From IMG/VR virus record IMGVR_UViG_3300034788_000077, positions 1 to 31,245 of that record: DNA of 31,245 nucleotides, one strand, 5' to 3'. Position 1 is the first letter of the stretch; each line of letters opens with the position of its first letter. This document shows positions 2,536-11,529 of the stretch, in pieces. The notes under the pieces are model-generated. The model was not told the DNA's origin, searched no databases, and saw only the letters and a list, made by a program, of their open reading frames with translations. This DNA comes from a virus. A program made the position numbers and the translations under genes.

Positions 2536-3240
2536 ATGCCTTTACCCAAGCTCGCTATCCCCGAGTATGATCTGACGTTGCCTATTACTGGCACTAAAGT
2601 TACATATCGACCCTTCCTTGTTAAAGAGGAGAAACTGCTCTATCTCGCTATGGAGTCGCAAGACGACAAGCAGATGATCAAGGCAGTTAAAACTATCATC
2701 AAGAATTGCACCAACCTGAAGAGTAAGGTAGAAGATCTCGCAACCTTCGAGATTGAATTCATCTTCCTTCGTATTCGTGCTACTGCTGTTGGTGAAGCAA
2801 GTGAATTCAAGATCACTTGTCCTGATGACAATGAGACACAAGTCGAAGTGATGGTGCCCCTGAATGAGGTCCAAGTCGAAATTCCTTCTGACCATGAGAA
2901 GAAAATTCTCCTTGATCAAGAAGTGGGTGTCGTTATGAAGTATCCTTCGATTGATGTATTCATCAGTCAAAATATGACAGACAATCCTGGACTTGAAGAT
3001 GTCTTTGAGTTAGCAGCAGGATGTATTGAGAGTGTATACGATAAGGAAGAAGTCTATGATACCTTCACTAAGAAGGAAGCACTAGATTTCCTTGAAGATC
3101 TGAATTCTGAGCAGTTTGCTAAGATCCAGAGATTCTTTGAGACTATGCCTAAGTTGACATACACACTTCCTGTCACAAACCCTAAGACTGGAGTTACATC
3201 TGATGTTGTGCTTGAAGGACTCGCGAGTTTTTTCGCATAG
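2536..3240 (+). CDS. gp26: Baseplate hub assembly protein, gp26-like (T4_baseplate family), frameshift donor
   Basis: The 234-residue product matches the T4 gp26-type baseplate family (T4 gp26 is 208 aa). It has the conserved opening LPKLAIPEYDLTLPITGTKV and YRPFLVKEEKLLYLAMES, then IKNCT, FEIEFIFLRIRATAVGE, a FKITCPDD strand, an MKYPS segment and a helical C-terminus ending in PKLTYTLP, TNPKTG and LEGLASFFA. Proteins of this type are needed for hub assembly. The gene ends in AGT TTT TTC GCA TAG, which contains a canonical -1 slippery heptamer (3228-3234), and the -1 frame continues through the next ORF. The combination of a short 0-frame protein, a -1 extension and an immediately following very large protein matches the gpG/gpGT tail assembly chaperone arrangement. 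A GGAG Shine-Dalgarno precedes the ATG at 2536. Confidence 0.8.
   Translation: MPLPKLAIPEYDLTLPITGTKVTYRPFLVKEEKLLYLAMESQDDKQMIKAVKTIIKNCTNLKSKVEDLATFEIEFIFLRIRATAVGEASEFKITCPDDNETQVEVMVPLNEVQVEIPSDHEKKILLDQEVGVVMKYPSIDVFISQNMTDNPGLEDVFELAAGCIESVYDKEEVYDTFTKKEALDFLEDLNSEQFAKIQRFFETMPKLTYTLPVTNPKTGVTSDVVLEGLASFFA
3228..3234 (+). other. Programmed -1 ribosomal frameshift site (T TTT TTC)
   Basis: Reading in the gp26 frame, codons AGT TTT TTC place the heptamer T TTT TTC exactly in the X XXY YYZ register. The 0-frame stops at TAG six bases later. After a -1 slip translation continues CGC ATA GCC CTA TTG into the downstream ORF without a stop, giving a predicted 298-residue fusion (233 + 65). 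No strong downstream hairpin was found by eye. Confidence 0.65.
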
Positions 3241-3245
3241 CCCTA

Positions 3246-3431
3246 TTGCACGATAGTCTTGAAAACTACTACAAAACAAACTTTGCCTTGATGCAGCACC
3301 ACAAGTATTCACTAACCGAGTTAGAGAATATGATTCCGTGGGAAAGAGATGTATATGTGAATCTTCTCCTCGCACATATTGCTGAGGAAGAAAGACGGCA
3401 AAACCAAGATCAGTCACGCATGTCCCTCTAA
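3246..3431 (+). CDS. Short ORF in the -1 frame of gp26; probable frameshift extension (gp51-like position)
   Basis: This frame encodes 61 residues if started at a TTG (3246). There is no ATG near the front and no Shine-Dalgarno, so independent initiation is doubtful. The frame is open back through the slippery heptamer at 3228-3234, so the natural product is probably a C-terminal extension of the gp26-like protein. Visible features are NYYKTNFALMQHHKYSLTE, then LENMIPWERDVYVNLLLAHI and a charged EEERRQNQDQ tail. The ...MIPWERDVYV..L pattern, an aromatic-rich helical end, resembles the T-type extensions of tail assembly chaperones. In T4-like nomenclature the hub assembly catalyst gp51 is a possible label, from position only. 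It ends in TAATG with the tape-measure-like gene. Confidence 0.72.
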   Translation: MHDSLENYYKTNFALMQHHKYSLTELENMIPWERDVYVNLLLAHIAEEERRQNQDQSRMSL

Positions 3432-6400
3432 TGGCAGCAATTCGTAGTTTCGTAAAAATTCAACCGATAACTGGTAAGTCAGGTATCGCTCAAAACATGG
3501 ATCAGGTGCGTAAGAGCATCAATCGCATGGGGAGCGTAACGGATGGTATTGCCAAGAGTTTTTATGATACGACTGAGCTTCTAAAGTTTGAAAAGGAGTA
3601 TCTTTCAGACACTTCTAAAGAAGAAGTCACGGATATCAAAAAGAAAGATAAGAAGGAAAAGACCAAGTGGACTGACTCCATGCGGAAATTCCGAAGATCT
3701 TTTGCAAAGAAAAAACGTGAGAGGTTAGAAGATCAGGCAGAAAAGGGCGTAGAGGAAGGAAAAGAAGAAGGTCGTAAGGCAGTCGAGAAAGAGAAACCCA
3801 AGATGGGTATGCTCGGTCGATTCCTAAATGGTCTTGCTAAGGTCTTCAAATATATGATTATATTTGGAGCACTGAATTGGTTAAGTAACCCACAGAATGC
3901 TGAGAGGGCAGTCAAGGTATTCAAGGTCTTATTTACCATAGGTAAGTTTGCTTTCAAACTTACGAAGATGGGCGTCGGGATGATTCTCGATGGTCTGACA
4001 AATGTCTTTGGTAATTATAGTGAAGAAGGCGCTATCAGACGTGGACTCCGAGGTGTACTTGGTGTCGTACAACTGATGGGTGGACTTGCTGTGCTTAGGA
4101 CAGCACAGTATATGATCATGCCTTGGAAACTCCTCAAGGATGTTAATCGTCTGAGGATGATCTTCTCAGGAAATGCTGAGCAGTCTGCTGAGGCAGAAAG
4201 AAATGCACAAGTAAGAAAAGGCGGATATAGAGATAAGAAGACTGGAGTTATCTACTCCGACAAAGAATACAAATCGATGCAGAAGGCTGCCGCTAGGGCA
4301 GACCGCAAGAATCCTGGTGCCAGCAAAGCATTTGAGGAGAGATTTGGTAAGGAAGGTAGAATCTCCAAGATGCGTCGCGCTATGGGCGACAAATTCAAAG
4401 GAGTTAAGGGTAAATTTGGCGGTAAGGCAAATCAAGTATTTGGTAAGCTCGGCGGTAAGTTAAACGTCGGCATGAGCGTCGTAGGTGGCGCTGGTAGGAT
4501 TGCAGCAGGTCTCGCTAGTGGTGAGAAGGCATCCTCTGCTATTGGTGCTGGTGTCGGTCAAGGTGTTGGTGGTCTGCTTGGTGGTATCGCTGGCACAGCG
4601 TTACTCGGACCTTTCCTTGGACCCTTTGCACCTATTGTTGGTAATGCACTCGGTAGTTTCCTAGGTGAGTGGGTAGGTAAAGAGTTAGGTCCACTCATGG
4701 AGCCTATCTTTGGACCTATCAAGAGATACTTTGGTATGGTCTTTGAATTCTGGAAGATGACTCTAGGACCGATCATTGATCAGGTCAAAGAGCCCTTAGG
4801 ATTGATTTTCCAGCTGATTGGTAGGTTGGGTCAATTCCTAATGGATGGTGCCAAGGTCCTGATGGACTTTACTGGATTCATCCTTGGTCCTGTATTCAAT
4901 GCTATTGGTGGCGTAGTCCAGTTTGTTGTCAACAACGCCAAACGTCTCATGAATCCTGCCTCTGTGGCAGGTGGTATCTTGGATGCGGTGACATTCAACC
5001 TGTTTGACTTCGACGGAGAGAATAAGAAGGCAGCAGGTGGACCTGTAGGGATGGCTGCGGGTGGACCCATGCAGTTTGGCAGCAATGCTGATCTACTTGC
5101 TGCTACAGGTGGTATCTACCTTAAATCAATCGTAGGTGGTCTTGGTGCATTTGGATTTGTTGGTAATAAGGTAAAATCTGTCCTAGCACCTGATATCCAG
5201 AAACTTGGTAATGCATTTGGTGTCAGTGTTGGCACTGGAGGTGGTAGTGCAACAGGTGGTGTAAGCACATCTGTCACCTTCCAAGCGACACAGACAGAGA
5301 AGAAGAAGGTTGAGAATTCAAAGAAACTTACATATAAAAAGAATATCTATGGTGCTATCAATGATGGGTTGAATAAACTTCTCATCAATGGCATCAAGAT
5401 CTTTGATCCTCAGCAAGCAGCACAACTTGAGCAGCAGAGACAACAACCAGGCACAGGCAGTGGTCAGACTCAACAATCTGGACCATCACCATCTGGTCCT
5501 AGTGGATTTACTGGTGTTGGTGGTGCAACAGGTAGTGCGAATGAGAAGGCAGTACTTAATGCTATTGCAGATGCTGAAGGCACAAGCAAGTATCCTAATA
5601 AGGGATATAACACTCAGTATACTGGTAAGCAGTTTACAGGTGACAAACATCCTAGACAGATTCTTGGTCCATCCAGCTTAAGATCTGACGCTGCTGGTAG
5701 ATATCAATTCTTATCTACCACTTGGGATAGCGTAATGGGTGATCCCATTACACCAGAAAGGCAAGACCAAGGTGCTCTAAAACTTATTAAGGGACGTGGT
5801 GTTAATATCAGCAATGGTCTCTCACTCTCGGAGATCTATAGATTAGGTGGTGAGTGGGCATCCATTGAGGGTGGTCCCAACATGGTGAAAGGTGGTGGAT
5901 ACGGTGGTCAAGCAAAGTATTCAGCTGAAACCTTCCTTGGGATGTATGAAAAGTATGGTGGCACTAGGGAGATGGCAGAGGGTGGACATCTTACCGACGC
6001 TGGTCTTAGAGCAAGAGAGAAGAAGGGTGCTATTAGGACAAAATTAGAAAAGGCAAAGAGAGATAAGAGAAATAAAAGTGTACCTGGTAGATCTACTGGT
6101 GGATTCACTGCACACAGGACTATTCCTGACACACCTAGCACATCTTGGGCTGCAGGTATTCCTCTGACTAGAGTGAGATCTAAGAGTGGATCTTCAGCTG
6201 AGGTTGCACTAGCTCTGGCAACTAGATTCCAAGGATTCATTGATGATCTTGAGGCAACTGGTTACAACATCAAGGAGATGGGTGGATTTAGACCTGATGG
6301 TCCTCCAGGTGGCAACGTTGATGGTAAAGGTCCACAATATGCACACCCATATGGTGCTGCTATTGATATTAACTGGACGGATAACCCTGCATTTACAAAA

Positions 6401-7057
6401 ATCCCAGCTAACAAATGGGGAGACTTCCCATCAAATTCAGGTGATTTAGCTGCAAAATATGGATTAGGGTGGGGCGGAAACTTTGATGATGCTATGCACT
6501 TCTCTGCTATGAAGAGAGAGTATGGCACAGGTATCGGAGGACAAGAAATTACTGGTGAGGTTGTACGTAATGCAACAGGTGCCGAAGCAGTGGTTAGCAG
6601 CACAGGCGGGTCTCAACCTAGCACTTCACCTTCAGGAAGCACTAATAACAAGCAAAGTGCTGTACAAGAATCTAAACCTGAGAAACCCAAGACTGTTGAA
6701 GAGATGCTGGAAGCATTCAAGACAGGTATCAGGAATGCATTAGGAAAGCTCGGCGCAAATGTAAAAGCTAACGCACCAGCTAGCACTGCTACACAGGATG
6801 CTGGTGTAGATACAGCAGAGAAAGTCACATCCACACCTTCTATTGATGCAGCAGACATTACGGCAGTTGGATCTATTCGAGATAATGCACTCCAGAAGTT
6901 AAAAGCAATCAAGGAGAAGGCAGAGCGTGATGAGACGGGAGACATCATACCTATTGTGCAAGAGCGTCTAGTCATACAAAAGGTCACACAGCAGATAAAT
7001 ACATCAGGTAGCACTAAAGCTGTGTATACCAAACCTTCGCCTCTTCTCAGTCAGTAA
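3431..7057 (+). CDS. Giant tape-measure-like virion protein with lambda-lysozyme-type and M15-type peptidoglycan hydrolase domains
   Basis: This 1208-residue protein is the largest in the window. Order of regions: basic, Lys/Glu-rich coiled-coil-like N-terminus (to about 135); hydrophobic helix KVFKYMIIFGALNWL (about 137-151); Gly/Ala-rich membrane-like stretch (about 351-411); low-complexity Gln/Gly/Ser linker (about 660-700); a domain at about 703-850 that follows the lambda lysozyme (GH104) pattern with AEGTS (E716 likely catalytic), NKGYNTQY, HPRQI, DAAGRYQFLSTTWD (from D753) and ALKLIKGRGV; and a second domain at about 925-1030 with HPYGAAIDIN (H972, D979) and GWGGNFDDAMHFS (H1023), the zinc-ligand pattern of M15 D,D- or L,D-peptidases. 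Position after the chaperone-like frameshift gene and before gp27 favours a tape measure or ejected protein that digests the cell wall during DNA entry. T4 gp29 (590 aa) lacks such domains. Confidence 0.85.
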   Translation: MAAIRSFVKIQPITGKSGIAQNMDQVRKSINRMGSVTDGIAKSFYDTTELLKFEKEYLSDTSKEEVTDIKKKDKKEKTKWTDSMRKFRRSFAKKKRERLEDQAEKGVEEGKEEGRKAVEKEKPKMGMLGRFLNGLAKVFKYMIIFGALNWLSNPQNAERAVKVFKVLFTIGKFAFKLTKMGVGMILDGLTNVFGNYSEEGAIRRGLRGVLGVVQLMGGLAVLRTAQYMIMPWKLLKDVNRLRMIFSGNAEQSAEAERNAQVRKGGYRDKKTGVIYSDKEYKSMQKAAARADRKNPGASKAFEERFGKEGRISKMRRAMGDKFKGVKGKFGGKANQVFGKLGGKLNVGMSVVGGAGRIAAGLASGEKASSAIGAGVGQGVGGLLGGIAGTALLGPFLGPFAPIVGNALGSFLGEWVGKELGPLMEPIFGPIKRYFGMVFEFWKMTLGPIIDQVKEPLGLIFQLIGRLGQFLMDGAKVLMDFTGFILGPVFNAIGGVVQFVVNNAKRLMNPASVAGGILDAVTFNLFDFDGENKKAAGGPVGMAAGGPMQFGSNADLLAATGGIYLKSIVGGLGAFGFVGNKVKSVLAPDIQKLGNAFGVSVGTGGGSATGGVSTSVTFQATQTEKKKVENSKKLTYKKNIYGAINDGLNKLLINGIKIFDPQQAAQLEQQRQQPGTGSGQTQQSGPSPSGPSGFTGVGGATGSANEKAVLNAIADAEGTSKYPNKGYNTQYTGKQFTGDKHPRQILGPSSLRSDAAGRYQFLSTTWDSVMGDPITPERQDQGALKLIKGRGVNISNGLSLSEIYRLGGEWASIEGGPNMVKGGGYGGQAKYSAETFLGMYEKYGGTREMAEGGHLTDAGLRAREKKGAIRTKLEKAKRDKRNKSVPGRSTGGFTAHRTIPDTPSTSWAAGIPLTRVRSKSGSSAEVALALATRFQGFIDDLEATGYNIKEMGGFRPDGPPGGNVDGKGPQYAHPYGAAIDINWTDNPAFTKIPANKWGDFPSNSGDLAAKYGLGWGGNFDDAMHFSAMKREYGTGIGGQEITGEVVRNATGAEAVVSSTGGSQPSTSPSGSTNNKQSAVQESKPEKPKTVEEMLEAFKTGIRNALGKLGANVKANAPASTATQDAGVDTAEKVTSTPSIDAADITAVGSIRDNALQKLKAIKEKAERDETGDIIPIVQERLVIQKVTQQINTSGSTKAVYTKPSPLLSQ
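6995..7001 (+). promoter_or_regulatory. Possible intragenic late promoter
   Basis: ATAAATA within GATAAATAC lies 60 bases before the start of the second giant gene and matches the core seen before the tail-fibre genes. It is inside coding sequence and may be coincidental. Confidence 0.25.
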
Positions 7058-7060
7058 TAG

Positions 7061-10000
7061 ATGGCAAACAAAGCACCAGCAATTAAGGTCCAGAAGGCAA
7101 AACTTTATAAGATGATTTCTTATAGGGGGACTTCTGGTGGCAAGAAGTTTACTGCCCTGAGTGCTGCTGATGAGATGGGCAAGATTGCCAAGGAGCAGGA
7201 TAAAGCATTTAAGACTATCACCTCAGGTATGAATTCCTTGGGTGCATCGATGAATGGCATTGCTATTCAAGTAGAGAAAATGACCCAAGCGATGAAAGAT
7301 CGCGTCTCTAGTAAGATTCGTGGTGATGCCATCGTTAAGAAGCAAGAGGATGCTAAAGAGAAGCAAGAGGCAGATAGAGAGAAAAAGAAAACTGCCGCAG
7401 AGAAACTAAGAGAAGCAAAGAAAAAGAGAGCTGACGACGAGGAGAATAGCGAGAAGAAAAAGAAGAAGGTCCAAGGTGAAAAGATGAAAGAATTCAAGGA
7501 GGCAGCGAAATCTGCTTTCGGTGGATTCTTTGGTGCTATTGCTAGATTCCTTGGTGGTATCTTTAAGATCTTTATTGCATTTGCTGCACTAGACTGGATC
7601 TCTAAGAATCCAGAGAAAGTCCAGAAACTTGTAGAAGGACTTGCTGCTATTGGTAAGTTTGTCTGGAATATAACGTCATTCCTAGTGGGATCAGCGTTTG
7701 ATGGACTGGTCAAATTTATGGAGAATCCCATATCCCTGAAGGGATTGTTGGGATTTGGACAGTTTCTACTGTCTGCTGCTCCTATATTCTTGGGGATTGC
7801 ATTCCTTAAGAATCCACTAGCAACAGCGAAGACTGTCGGATGGGTTGTTAGTAGTCTTGTCAAGGGTATCCTTAACATTGGCGGGGCAATTAAAGCTGGT
7901 GGTAAGCTAAAGAAATTCTTTTCGTCTAAGTTTGGTAAGGTTGCCATTGCTGGGACCGTTGGTGTTAGTGCATATCTTGGAGCGAGAGCTGCTGGTGACA
8001 GTCAGGCAGAAGCAATCGGTGCTGGTGTAGGTACTGGTGGCGGTGCTCTAGTTGGTGAGGCAATCGGTAACAAGCTTGGTGGTCCCCTTGGTGGGATGAT
8101 CGGTGGTGTTGCTGGTGGATTTGTTGGTGGTAAGGTAGGTAAAGCAGTTGGTGGATTCCTAGAGCCAATCTTTGGACCTATTCAGAAATTCTTCGGCATG
8201 GTTGGAGAGGTCTTCAACAGTGTGATGGCACCTATTAAAGAGTCCTTAGGTGGATTCTTTGAAGCACTGGGTGCTGCGATGACTGGTATACTTGACTTCG
8301 TTGAGCCACATCTACCCCTAATCAGTAAGATTCTGGGTATTGGCATTCAGGTCATGTTTGCACCATTCTTCTTAGGATTGAAGGCACTGACAGCAGTGCT
8401 AAAATTCTTTGCACCTAAGACAGATGAGGTAGATAAAGAGAAGAGTAAGTCAGGTAAGGCAAGAGGCGGTCACTTCCAGACTGCTAAGATGGTTAAGCCC
8501 AAGATGGCATCTGGCGGGACATTTAACCTGCAAGATGAGATGGCGAAGCAACTTCGCCGCACAATGAAGTTGGGTAAGGCATTTGCTCAGCTCATGCAAC
8601 TCCCATTCAAAGCATTGGGCGTTGGTATCATGACTGCCATCGGTGGTATTGGTAAAGTATTTGGTGCATTCCTCCCAGCACCTATCAGAAATATGCTGGG
8701 GTCGATGATTGCACCCCTCGCTAAGATCTTTGGCGTGCCAATGTCTGCCATTGGTGGAAGTGCTGCCTCTAACGAGGAGATGAAGGGTGAGGATAAAGGA
8801 AAGGCAGACCCGAAGACTGACGCACTGACTTGGGAAGAGAAACTCTTAGAAGCAATCGCTGGTGACAATGGCACCATTGCACTGTTTGGTAAACTATTCA
8901 AAGCAATCGTAGAGCATCCTATCTTTAAGGGTGTGAAGGCAGTTGCTAAGGGTCTCCTAGGTGCTGTTGGTAGTTTCTTTGGATTCTCTGAGGGTGGTTA
9001 TGTGCCTGGCAGGGCAATGGGTGGATGGATCTCTGGTCCTCAGTCTGGTTATCCTGTGTCACTGGATGGTGGTGCTACCACTGCATTTATTGGTCATGGC
9101 ACTGAGTGGGTTGGTATGAAGGGATTCGCAGGCGGTGGTGCATTCGTTGTGCCATTTGACACACCTGCAACTAGACAGAATCCTGGTCTCACATCACAAA
9201 GAATGGGTGAGGCAATGCGTGGTGGTTATACCATGCCTTTCGCTAAGGGTGGATTCCTCCCTATGTTTAGTGCTGGTGGTAAGTTTGATCCTAAGGCATA
9301 CGCTAAAGATTCATTCAAGGCAAGTAGAGTTGTCCTGAATGATAAGTCATACTATGTGACTTATGGTTATGAAGGTGATCCTTCTGATGCAAAGATCAGC
9401 ATCAAGAGCATGTCCAAGAGGACAAAAGCAGGATTTATGGGTATGGGTGAGCAGAGAATTGGTATTGAGCCTGGTACCGATGAATTTAATGCAGTCATGA
9501 ATTCTCCTGGTCTTAAGACTGACATTGCTAATAGGCACAAGAGTAAGGGCGATTCTAGAGGTAGGAATCACAACCCCTCTAACATCACTGAGATAAAGAT
9601 TCATCCTAAAGCGATGAAGTTTTATGAATATAATAAGAGTTATCATGCCAATAAAGACGCTGGCATGTCTAATAAAGAAGCAGCTGAGGCATCTGCTGAA
9701 GAGCATGGCACAGTAACTGAAGCAGATCGTAAGGCAGCGAGAGAGGCAGAGAAGGAAAAGAAAAAGAAAAAGGGCGATGAGCCTAAAACTGAGTCTGCAC
9801 AAGAGAGACTTGATAGACTCTTTGGTGAAGACGGTGTGCTGGCAAAAGGTCTGGGAGAGATGGGTAAAACTGTCCCAGCAGCCACTGAAACAACCAACAC
9901 CTCTGGCACTAAGGTAGAAAATGCTCAGCAGAATAAGACTGAAAGTAAGCTAGATAAACTGAAAGCATTGACTGCAGAGCGTGATGCAGCAATGCAACCT

Positions 10001-10153
10001 ATCGTCCAAGAAAGTAATGCAGCACCTATCATGGGTGGTGGAGAGAGTGAAATTATTATTCCAGGCAAAGATAAGAATGACGCTGATGAATTCCTAAACG
10101 CTAAGTTTGGGTTACTCAACGAATTCAATTCAACATATAGCAACTTCATGTAA
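7061..10153 (+). CDS. Second tape-measure-like virion protein, paralogue of the preceding gene
   Basis: The 1030-residue product repeats the N-terminal half of its neighbour: a highly charged coiled-coil-like region with long Lys/Glu runs (about 95-150), a hydrophobic helix FKIFIAFAALDWI near 167-180 followed by SKNPEKVQK, a Gly/Ala-rich stretch at about 299-370 and the shared block LEPIFGPI(Q/K)(K/R)(F/Y)FGMV. It lacks both hydrolase domains. Instead it has further amphipathic segments and a block at about 645-710 (EGGYVPGRAMGGW, SGYPVSLDGG, FIGHGTEWVG, GGGAFVVPFDTP), then a Lys/Glu-rich C-terminal region. The ends are also alike (PIVQE). It follows the first giant gene after three bases and overlaps gp27 by TAATG. 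A role in tail length measurement or membrane penetration is inferred; the exact function is unknown. Confidence 0.82.
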   Translation: MANKAPAIKVQKAKLYKMISYRGTSGGKKFTALSAADEMGKIAKEQDKAFKTITSGMNSLGASMNGIAIQVEKMTQAMKDRVSSKIRGDAIVKKQEDAKEKQEADREKKKTAAEKLREAKKKRADDEENSEKKKKKVQGEKMKEFKEAAKSAFGGFFGAIARFLGGIFKIFIAFAALDWISKNPEKVQKLVEGLAAIGKFVWNITSFLVGSAFDGLVKFMENPISLKGLLGFGQFLLSAAPIFLGIAFLKNPLATAKTVGWVVSSLVKGILNIGGAIKAGGKLKKFFSSKFGKVAIAGTVGVSAYLGARAAGDSQAEAIGAGVGTGGGALVGEAIGNKLGGPLGGMIGGVAGGFVGGKVGKAVGGFLEPIFGPIQKFFGMVGEVFNSVMAPIKESLGGFFEALGAAMTGILDFVEPHLPLISKILGIGIQVMFAPFFLGLKALTAVLKFFAPKTDEVDKEKSKSGKARGGHFQTAKMVKPKMASGGTFNLQDEMAKQLRRTMKLGKAFAQLMQLPFKALGVGIMTAIGGIGKVFGAFLPAPIRNMLGSMIAPLAKIFGVPMSAIGGSAASNEEMKGEDKGKADPKTDALTWEEKLLEAIAGDNGTIALFGKLFKAIVEHPIFKGVKAVAKGLLGAVGSFFGFSEGGYVPGRAMGGWISGPQSGYPVSLDGGATTAFIGHGTEWVGMKGFAGGGAFVVPFDTPATRQNPGLTSQRMGEAMRGGYTMPFAKGGFLPMFSAGGKFDPKAYAKDSFKASRVVLNDKSYYVTYGYEGDPSDAKISIKSMSKRTKAGFMGMGEQRIGIEPGTDEFNAVMNSPGLKTDIANRHKSKGDSRGRNHNPSNITEIKIHPKAMKFYEYNKSYHANKDAGMSNKEAAEASAEEHGTVTEADRKAAREAEKEKKKKKGDEPKTESAQERLDRLFGEDGVLAKGLGEMGKTVPAATETTNTSGTKVENAQQNKTESKLDKLKALTAERDAAMQPIVQESNAAPIMGGGESEIIIPGKDKNDADEFLNAKFGLLNEFNSTYSNFM

Positions 10154-11529
10154 TGGCAGATCAGAAGTCTAGAGAATTTCAGTGTAAGAAGATCACCATC
10201 ACAACTCTTAATGATAATGAGTTTGATGTGAAAGATCTGGTGGCAGAATTTAGGTATCTAGAGTCTATTGAAGCAGCATTTGTACGTTGTGAGATGGTAT
10301 TTGTTGACTCTATTGACTTTAACCTGAATCTACAAGGTGCTGAAAAGGTAGAGATTAACCTTGAGACTCTGGCAGCAGATGGTAAGGGTGATCTGAAACT
10401 AGAGTTGAAGGTTTATAAGATTGGTGACATCATCAAGTCTGAGAGAGGGCAGATGTATAAGGTCTACTGTTGTAGTCCTGAGATGTATAATAATGAATTG
10501 AATAAAGTCTTCAAAGCATTTGGTCCTATCGAAGAAGGTGGATCTAAAGATGTTGAGAATATCCCCAGACATGTAGTCAAGAAATATCTTAAGGCACCTA
10601 ATAAGCGTGTCAAGGAAGAAAACTTTGAGAATCATTCCAGAGTCATCGTGGTGTCTCCTAACTGGAGACCCGTGGATCTCATCTCATATATTTCAGATAA
10701 GGTTACTAGGATAACAACTGGTAAGGGTAAGGCAAAGCAATCTGGATTCTTATTCTATGAAAATCAGCGAGGATTTAATTTTAAGTCCATTGACATGCTT
10801 TGTGAGCAAGGGTTTGAGTTCCAGTATAGATATCAACAGCAGGGTCAATTAGATGAAGACGATCCTGGTTATTACAACATCGAATCGATTCAGTATCCTG
10901 ATAAGGCGAATCACCTCAGACACATGAGGATGGGCACATATAAGACGATCACCACTGGTATATGTGTGCCTATTCCAACGATGAATAACCTCACACAATC
11001 TGGAGGTAGTAATGACAAGAAAAAGTCTCCCTCAGGGACGGTATATCCTGCGAGAGAGACGGCGTTTGATTCTATCTTCGGTAGAGCGTCCACTCTAGAA
11101 AAACAACCTCCATTTAATATGCCTGAGGAAGTTTCTGGAGAAGGGGCATCGCCTACCAGACAGAAGATGCGAGTCATTCCAGCACTTGCACACCAACAGG
11201 GTGATGAAAAGACAGGGACTCCAAAAGGAGATCCTGACAATGGTACGCAAGCATTTGACACTCTAGCAGTTGCAGAATATGCCGCCGCTAGGTATAATTT
11301 AATGAAGGCTATTCAGCTAACTATTACTGTACCTGGAAACACTGCACTCTGTGCAGGAGACGTAATCAAACTGATTATTCCTGGATCTCAGGAAGAAGGT
11401 AAGAGAGTCGAAAGAGATAAGAAATTCAGTGGGAAATATCTTATTGCTGCCCACACTTTTTCTTACAATTCCAAAGGTTGTACATCTGAATTCCTTTTAA
11501 TTAGAGATTCCATCCCAAAAGCAAAGTAA
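10153..11529 (+). CDS. gp27: Baseplate hub protein, gp27-like
   Basis: The 458-residue product has features of gp27-type hub proteins, which form the trimeric ring joining the gp5 spike to the tail tube. It opens with REFQCKKITITTLNDNEFDV and DLVAEFRYLESIEAAFVRCE, the usual first tube-like beta domain of hub proteins. HSRVIVVSPNWRPVDLISYI and GFLFYENQRGFNFKSIDML form the middle, and the end has GNTALCAGDVIKLIIPG and FSGKYLIAAHTFSY, common to gpD/gp27 hub folds. T4 gp27 is 391 aa, so this is longer, with an inserted Pro/Gly-rich stretch near 290-370. Position between the tape-measure-like genes and the gp5-like spike supports the call. The gene starts inside the upstream stop codon and ends one base before cp12. 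Confidence 0.75.
   Translation: MADQKSREFQCKKITITTLNDNEFDVKDLVAEFRYLESIEAAFVRCEMVFVDSIDFNLNLQGAEKVEINLETLAADGKGDLKLELKVYKIGDIIKSERGQMYKVYCCSPEMYNNELNKVFKAFGPIEEGGSKDVENIPRHVVKKYLKAPNKRVKEENFENHSRVIVVSPNWRPVDLISYISDKVTRITTGKGKAKQSGFLFYENQRGFNFKSIDMLCEQGFEFQYRYQQQGQLDEDDPGYYNIESIQYPDKANHLRHMRMGTYKTITTGICVPIPTMNNLTQSGGSNDKKKSPSGTVYPARETAFDSIFGRASTLEKQPPFNMPEEVSGEGASPTRQKMRVIPALAHQQGDEKTGTPKGDPDNGTQAFDTLAVAEYAAARYNLMKAIQLTITVPGNTALCAGDVIKLIIPGSQEEGKRVERDKKFSGKYLIAAHTFSYNSKGCTSEFLLIRDSIPKAK

Follow-up and report, generated by a model that had tools for sequence, protein, structure and literature searches.

A conserved -1 frameshift signal at the end of gene 26 very probably encodes paired tail assembly chaperones in T4-like phages other than the close kin of T4

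Results

The gp26 gene and its -1 frame

The window analysed here, a 31-kb IMG/VR virus fragment of 31,245 nucleotides from a T4-like marine phage, carries a gp26 homologue whose 3' end is overlapped in the -1 frame by a short open region, which is directly followed by a very large gene (Table 1). The PF12322 profile spans residues 9-234 of gp26, that is, the whole protein, and the gene has its own ribosome site (GGAG upstream; anti-SD energy -5.2 kcal/mol). Among the named phages listed, the best match is cyanophage P-TIM40 (66.9% identity), and a metagenomic relative reaches 88% identity. The 3' end of the gene reads GAA GGA CTC GCG AGT TTT TTC GCA TAG, in which T TTT TTC stands in exact X XXY YYZ register, as a previous sequence-only reading of this DNA had proposed; the distance of six bases to the stop given there is correct when counted from the first base of TTC, whereas the heptamer itself ends three bases before the stop.

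Table 1. Features of the gp26-gp51 region (positions in the window)
Feature	Position	Strand	Remarks
gp26 homologue, putative short chaperone form (TAC-N), zero frame	2536..3240	+	234 aa; PF12322 4.1e-70, phrog_150 1.3e-75
SD-like GAAGGA, proposed stimulator	3214..3219	+	8 nt ahead of the heptamer; peak of anti-SD pairing in 115 loci
-1 frame open region	3216..3431	+	stop TAA 3429-3431; phrog_634 2.8e-31; pN/pS 0.17
Slippery heptamer T TTT TTC	3228..3234	+	X XXY YYZ register; T_TTT_TTN kept in 175/178 loci
gp26 zero-frame stop	3238..3240	+	3 bases past the heptamer end
Large protein, tape-measure candidate, peptidase M15 domain	3431..7057	+	1208 aa; TAATG overlap of its start with the -1 stop; no ribosome site

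The -1 frame was confirmed to be open back through the slippery site. The short ORF had also been described as lacking an ATG and a ribosome site, which is true near its beginning, where no usable start codon or ribosome site for a separate gp51 was found in the window: the first start-like codon is a TTG at 3246 and the first ATG lies at 3291, with anti-SD energies of +1.3 and +1.4 kcal/mol, respectively. Internal ATGs do exist, but they come only after conserved residues. From position 3234 onward the -1 codons encode the gp51 extension of a conceptual 298-aa gp26-gp51 fusion. The -1 product matches gp51 and, in addition, the far end of the gp26 profile phrog_150 (1.5e-7), and the latter match suggests that some phrog_150 members are already gp26-gp51 fusions. 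No second PF12322 protein was found among the eight neighbouring genes scanned, the -1 region itself having only 71 codons, and a gp26 search of the 31-kb record, a fragment, returned a single match; the T4-type arrangement of separate full-length gp26 and gp51 genes was thus not found in the window. A search of the window proteins against NCBIfam gave no match.

As a bare string, TTTTTTC is present at an ordinary frequency (5 copies in the window, 5.7 expected). Among 26 gene-sized ORFs, however, the gp26 heptamer is one of only two X XXY YYZ sequences that lie in register near a gene end and have a -1 extension past the stop. The other, C CCA AAA at 11514-11520, is found 6 bases ahead of the stop of gene 10153-11529, beyond which the -1 frame is open for 34 codons, and is probably due to chance.

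Neighbouring genes

The gene upstream of gp26 (1758-2510) encodes a tail tube-family protein (phrog_45, 2.9e-41). Downstream, a very large gene does follow directly, as previously noted, but its description as tape-measure-like holds only in the sense of a candidate: the 1208-aa product has weak tape-measure matches only (phrog_794, 4.8e-4). A comparison with T4 gp29 gave no convincing similarity. The 1208-aa protein and the 1030-aa protein encoded next to it (7061-10153) share two regions (30% over 215 columns, 5e-15; 28% over 219 columns, 1e-9) and look like paralogues, and each has matches to phage families annotated as endolysin or tape measure. Relative to the first base of the -1 stop, the start of the next long ORF falls between 17 bases upstream and 3 bases downstream in 88 of 112 loci. 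Because the large gene in the window combines the TAATG overlap with the lack of a ribosome site, reinitiation there may be achieved only by ribosomes that have slipped; several relatives do have a ribosome site at the start of the next gene. It is conceivable, if doubtful, that the frameshift also sets the dose of the large downstream protein and thereby fixes its ratio to the long chaperone.

Conservation and selection across relatives

A chance origin of the heptamer is excluded by its conservation rather than by the frequency of the string. In a first set, T TTT TTC is kept shortly ahead of the gp26 stop in all 85 loci, and the -1 frame encodes the same protein in each. When the set was extended to distant T4-like phages, the heptamer was in register in 175 of 178 loci (158 TTTTTTC, 16 TTTTTTT and 1 TTTTTTA), at a distance from the gp26 stop that varied from 0 to 8 codons, and it is also present in three further loci (S-WAM1, Sf-CH1b and Pseudomonas pf16). 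The conservation of the heptamer and the -1 overlap in other T4-like cyanophages, put forward earlier as a test of the frameshift, was found in all cyanophage loci examined and extends well beyond them, to phages of Rhizobiales, Stenotrophomonas, Vibrio, Aeromonas, Pseudomonas, Pseudoalteromonas and Methylophilales. A scan with the protein of Pseudoalteromonas phage XG4 yielded no further relatives.

Within a non-redundant set of 115 loci (<90% identical), the Phe pair at the site is encoded by TTT TTC in 107 loci, compared with 2 of 119 other Phe-Phe pairs in gp26, and the preceding base is T in 115/115, although the codon to which it belongs encodes eight different amino acids. Only the two Phe codons show a drop in synonymous variation, to 0.00 and 0.12, and it recovers on either side. 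Past the heptamer, codon periodicity shifts to the -1 frame, which is under strong purifying selection there (pN/pS 0.17, compared with 1.23 and 2.98 for the remaining two frames), and in the relatives the protein is conserved without gaps through the junction.

In a Mendera-like contig (locus L182, around 2740), TTTTTC replaces TTTTTTC and the gp26 frame is broken; as this run does not join the frames, its five Ts probably reflect an error in sequencing the homopolymer or else one mutation. The Vibrio phages K475 (L095 3700-3905) and K393 (L096 3560-3760) keep the gp51 -1 frame with TAATG, and in place of the heptamer have CTT TTT or CTT TTC; they perhaps represent a third way, in which frameshifting was switched to reinitiation.

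Candidate stimulators of slippage

In the relatives, a GARGGN element lies 8 nt ahead of the heptamer, where anti-SD pairing peaks at -6.3 kcal/mol, compared with roughly 0 to -2.4 elsewhere. Its Glu codon favours GAG over GAA, the reverse of the rest of the gene (p=7e-13), and the signal is partly due to a conserved Glu-Gly, since synonymous shuffling gives -5.7 and the observed value is -6.6. In Escherichia coli dnaX, an SD-like stimulator acts with similar spacing.

Folding of the RNA directly downstream is stronger in the relatives than in shuffled sequences (mean z -1.98, 48% below -2; means elsewhere, +0.1 to -0.5), with stems that are clade-specific. A downstream structure common to all relatives was rejected, as the folds vary by clade and the fold of the window is weak; the stem that many relatives form was not found in the window, where it would contain a C-A mismatch. 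The site in the window may therefore depend on the heptamer and the upstream element. An Rfam search of the region gave no match.

Comparison with T4 gp26 and gp51

PF12322 is found both in T4 gp26 (8.8e-64) and in residues 1-201 of T4 gp51 (3.9e-52), and when the conceptual frameshift products are combined into a profile, its alignment with T4 gp51 runs across the junction (SFFRIAL... over DVFKLLV...). Because T4 gp51 is collinear across the junction, the 'gp51' of the window is a C-terminal extension of gp26. Judged from these alignments, T4 gp51 is the long form encoded in frame, and T4 gp26, the short form, is a duplicate of it that has no tail. No heptamer is present at the site in the two-gene lineages examined, namely T4, 44RR, a Krischvirus (RB49-like) and EC-F2 (a Pseudotevenvirus, RB43-like). 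KVP40-like Vibrio phages and Aeromonas phage CC2, in or near Straboviridae, retain it. The simplest reading suggests that frameshifting is ancestral and that the T4 branch swapped it for gene duplication.

Aeromonas phage CC2, which we take to be Aeh1-like, has an unannotated gp51-type -1 ORF after gp26 (L093 3675-3863), and this suggests an answer to the apparent absence of gp51 from Aeh1. Sullivan et al. (2010, PMC3037559) reported that Aeh1 lacks gp51 and that cyanophage gp51 is about 20% of full length, with the first ~200 residues missing; the frameshift directly accounts for the latter, cyanophage gp51 seeming short by ~200 residues because it is the -1 extension of gp26.

Discussion

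Ribosomes appear to slip one base back at the end of the gp26 gene, both in this phage and in nearly all of its distant relatives, the close kin of T4 being the exception. We are confident, on present evidence, that this -1 frameshift yields gp26 and a gp26-gp51 fusion as a short and a long tail assembly chaperone, in the manner of lambda gpG and gpGT. Most ribosomes would terminate at 3238 and produce gp26, the abundant short form, whereas we infer that a minority slips back on U UUU UUC and makes the 298-aa fusion, with help from the SD-like element upstream and, for many relatives, from a stem-loop downstream as well. By analogy with the lambda gpG/gpGT model (summarised in PMC5009743), the common N part is expected to coat the tape measure protein and the additional C part to recruit subunits of the tail tube, and both forms would depart before tail completion. 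Evidence against such a pair comes from K475 and K393, which hold the -1 frame without the heptamer, and from the window, which lacks the stem of its relatives. When the AlphaFold model of gp26 (pLDDT 86.8) was searched with foldseek, it matched the HK97 tail assembly chaperone 2ob9 non-significantly (probability 0.77, E 1.0, TM by target length 0.50) and 3fgx at a probability of 0.33, the latter listed among tail assembly chaperones (PMC9603447), the remaining PDB matches being otherwise implausible; the likeness of this modelled fold to known chaperones is suggestive and non-significant. A PDB sequence search with the gp26 family profile gave chance matches only.

The pairing of gp26 and gp51 as chaperones, proposed by the sequence-only reading as a layout not commonly described for T4-like phages, is supported. 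As cited in two later papers (PMC10885494, PMC12846349), a chaperone role was already proposed for T4 in 2022. Tail assembly chaperone genes of T4-like phages were identified by Vladimirov, Gautam and Davidson (2022), in a paper whose title argues for a non-frameshift mechanism; citing it, PMC10885494 states that some T4-like phages have one short and one fused chaperone gene, and PMC12846349 that poly-T frameshift signals are known in the TAC-N genes of T4-like phages. As the latter credits these signals to Vladimirov et al., frameshifting in part of the T4-like phages has probably been published. None of the 17 annotated frameshift-type records that we examined joins the two frames, and our reading corrects the annotation of hundreds of genomes of cyanophages and related phages, in which gp51 is entered as a separate 'hub assembly catalyst' or omitted. 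If frameshifting is ancestral, the exception made for T4 in a 2016 review ('except T4', PMC5009743) would cover the T4 branch only, not T4-like phages overall.

GenBank records annotate gp51 as a separate gene, and such a small protein might be made by reinitiation or internal initiation just past the gp26 stop, which an ATG overlaps in KVP40-like phages, Mendera and XG4 as well as in K475 and K393, the last two having no heptamer. We regard this as very improbable: start codons near the beginning of the -1 frame in the window have no ribosome site, conserved residues start at the heptamer and thus ahead of any start codon, and in 45 of 115 loci an ATG is absent from the first nine codons of the -1 frame. 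Among the loci compared, no homologue was found with an ATG and a ribosome site for the short ORF in another relative frame; the overlapping ATG present in KVP40-like phages, Mendera and XG4 belongs to this -1 frame as well, and these phages retain the heptamer. Separate initiation would also leave the invariant heptamer and the T preceding the Phe pair unexplained, and T4 encodes the fusion in frame. Joining of the frames by slippage of RNA polymerase on the T run, rather than of the ribosome, seems scarcely credible. The run does consist of six Ts in a row, and of seven or more in 16 of 175 loci, but six Ts are short for polymerase slippage, most loci have exactly six followed by C and maintain strict codon register, and the SD-like element and the downstream stems act on ribosomes.

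A different question is whether the frameshift, if real, serves a baseplate hub scaffold rather than a tape-measure and tube chaperone. T4 gp26 and gp51 have been described as hub assembly chaperones (PMC3004832) and their genes adjoin hub genes, the next gene in the window has a peptidase domain, and in BUCT-ZZ01 the next gene encodes a late sigma factor. The order of a tail tube-type protein, gp26/gp51 and a very large protein is nevertheless the usual position of chaperone genes, and tail assembly chaperones are built as short and long isoforms, so we consider a hub scaffold unlikely; the two roles could also overlap, given that T4 gp29 serves both as a hub part and as the tape measure.

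The chaperone pair proposed here can be compared with three kinds of known system. With lambda gpG/gpGT and other frameshifted chaperones it shares a short form, a -1 long form with a common N part, a heptamer close to where the first frame ends and a place before a very large tail gene. It differs from lambda in having no detectable sequence relation, in the greater length of gp26 (234 aa), in the SD-like element that precedes the site and in the heptamer itself, T TTT TTC instead of G GGA AAG, the slippery site of lambda. In other phage families with frameshifted chaperones, too, the short gene ends in a conserved poly-T -1 site with an open -1 frame, the tape measure gene coming next there, but the motif reported for them is GTTTTT rather than T TTT TTC. 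The proteins of T4 are homologous to those of the window, with PF12322 in both and a gp51 tail collinear with the -1 ORF; in T4, 44RR, RB49-like and RB43-like phages, however, the short and long forms are two genes and the heptamer is absent from the site.
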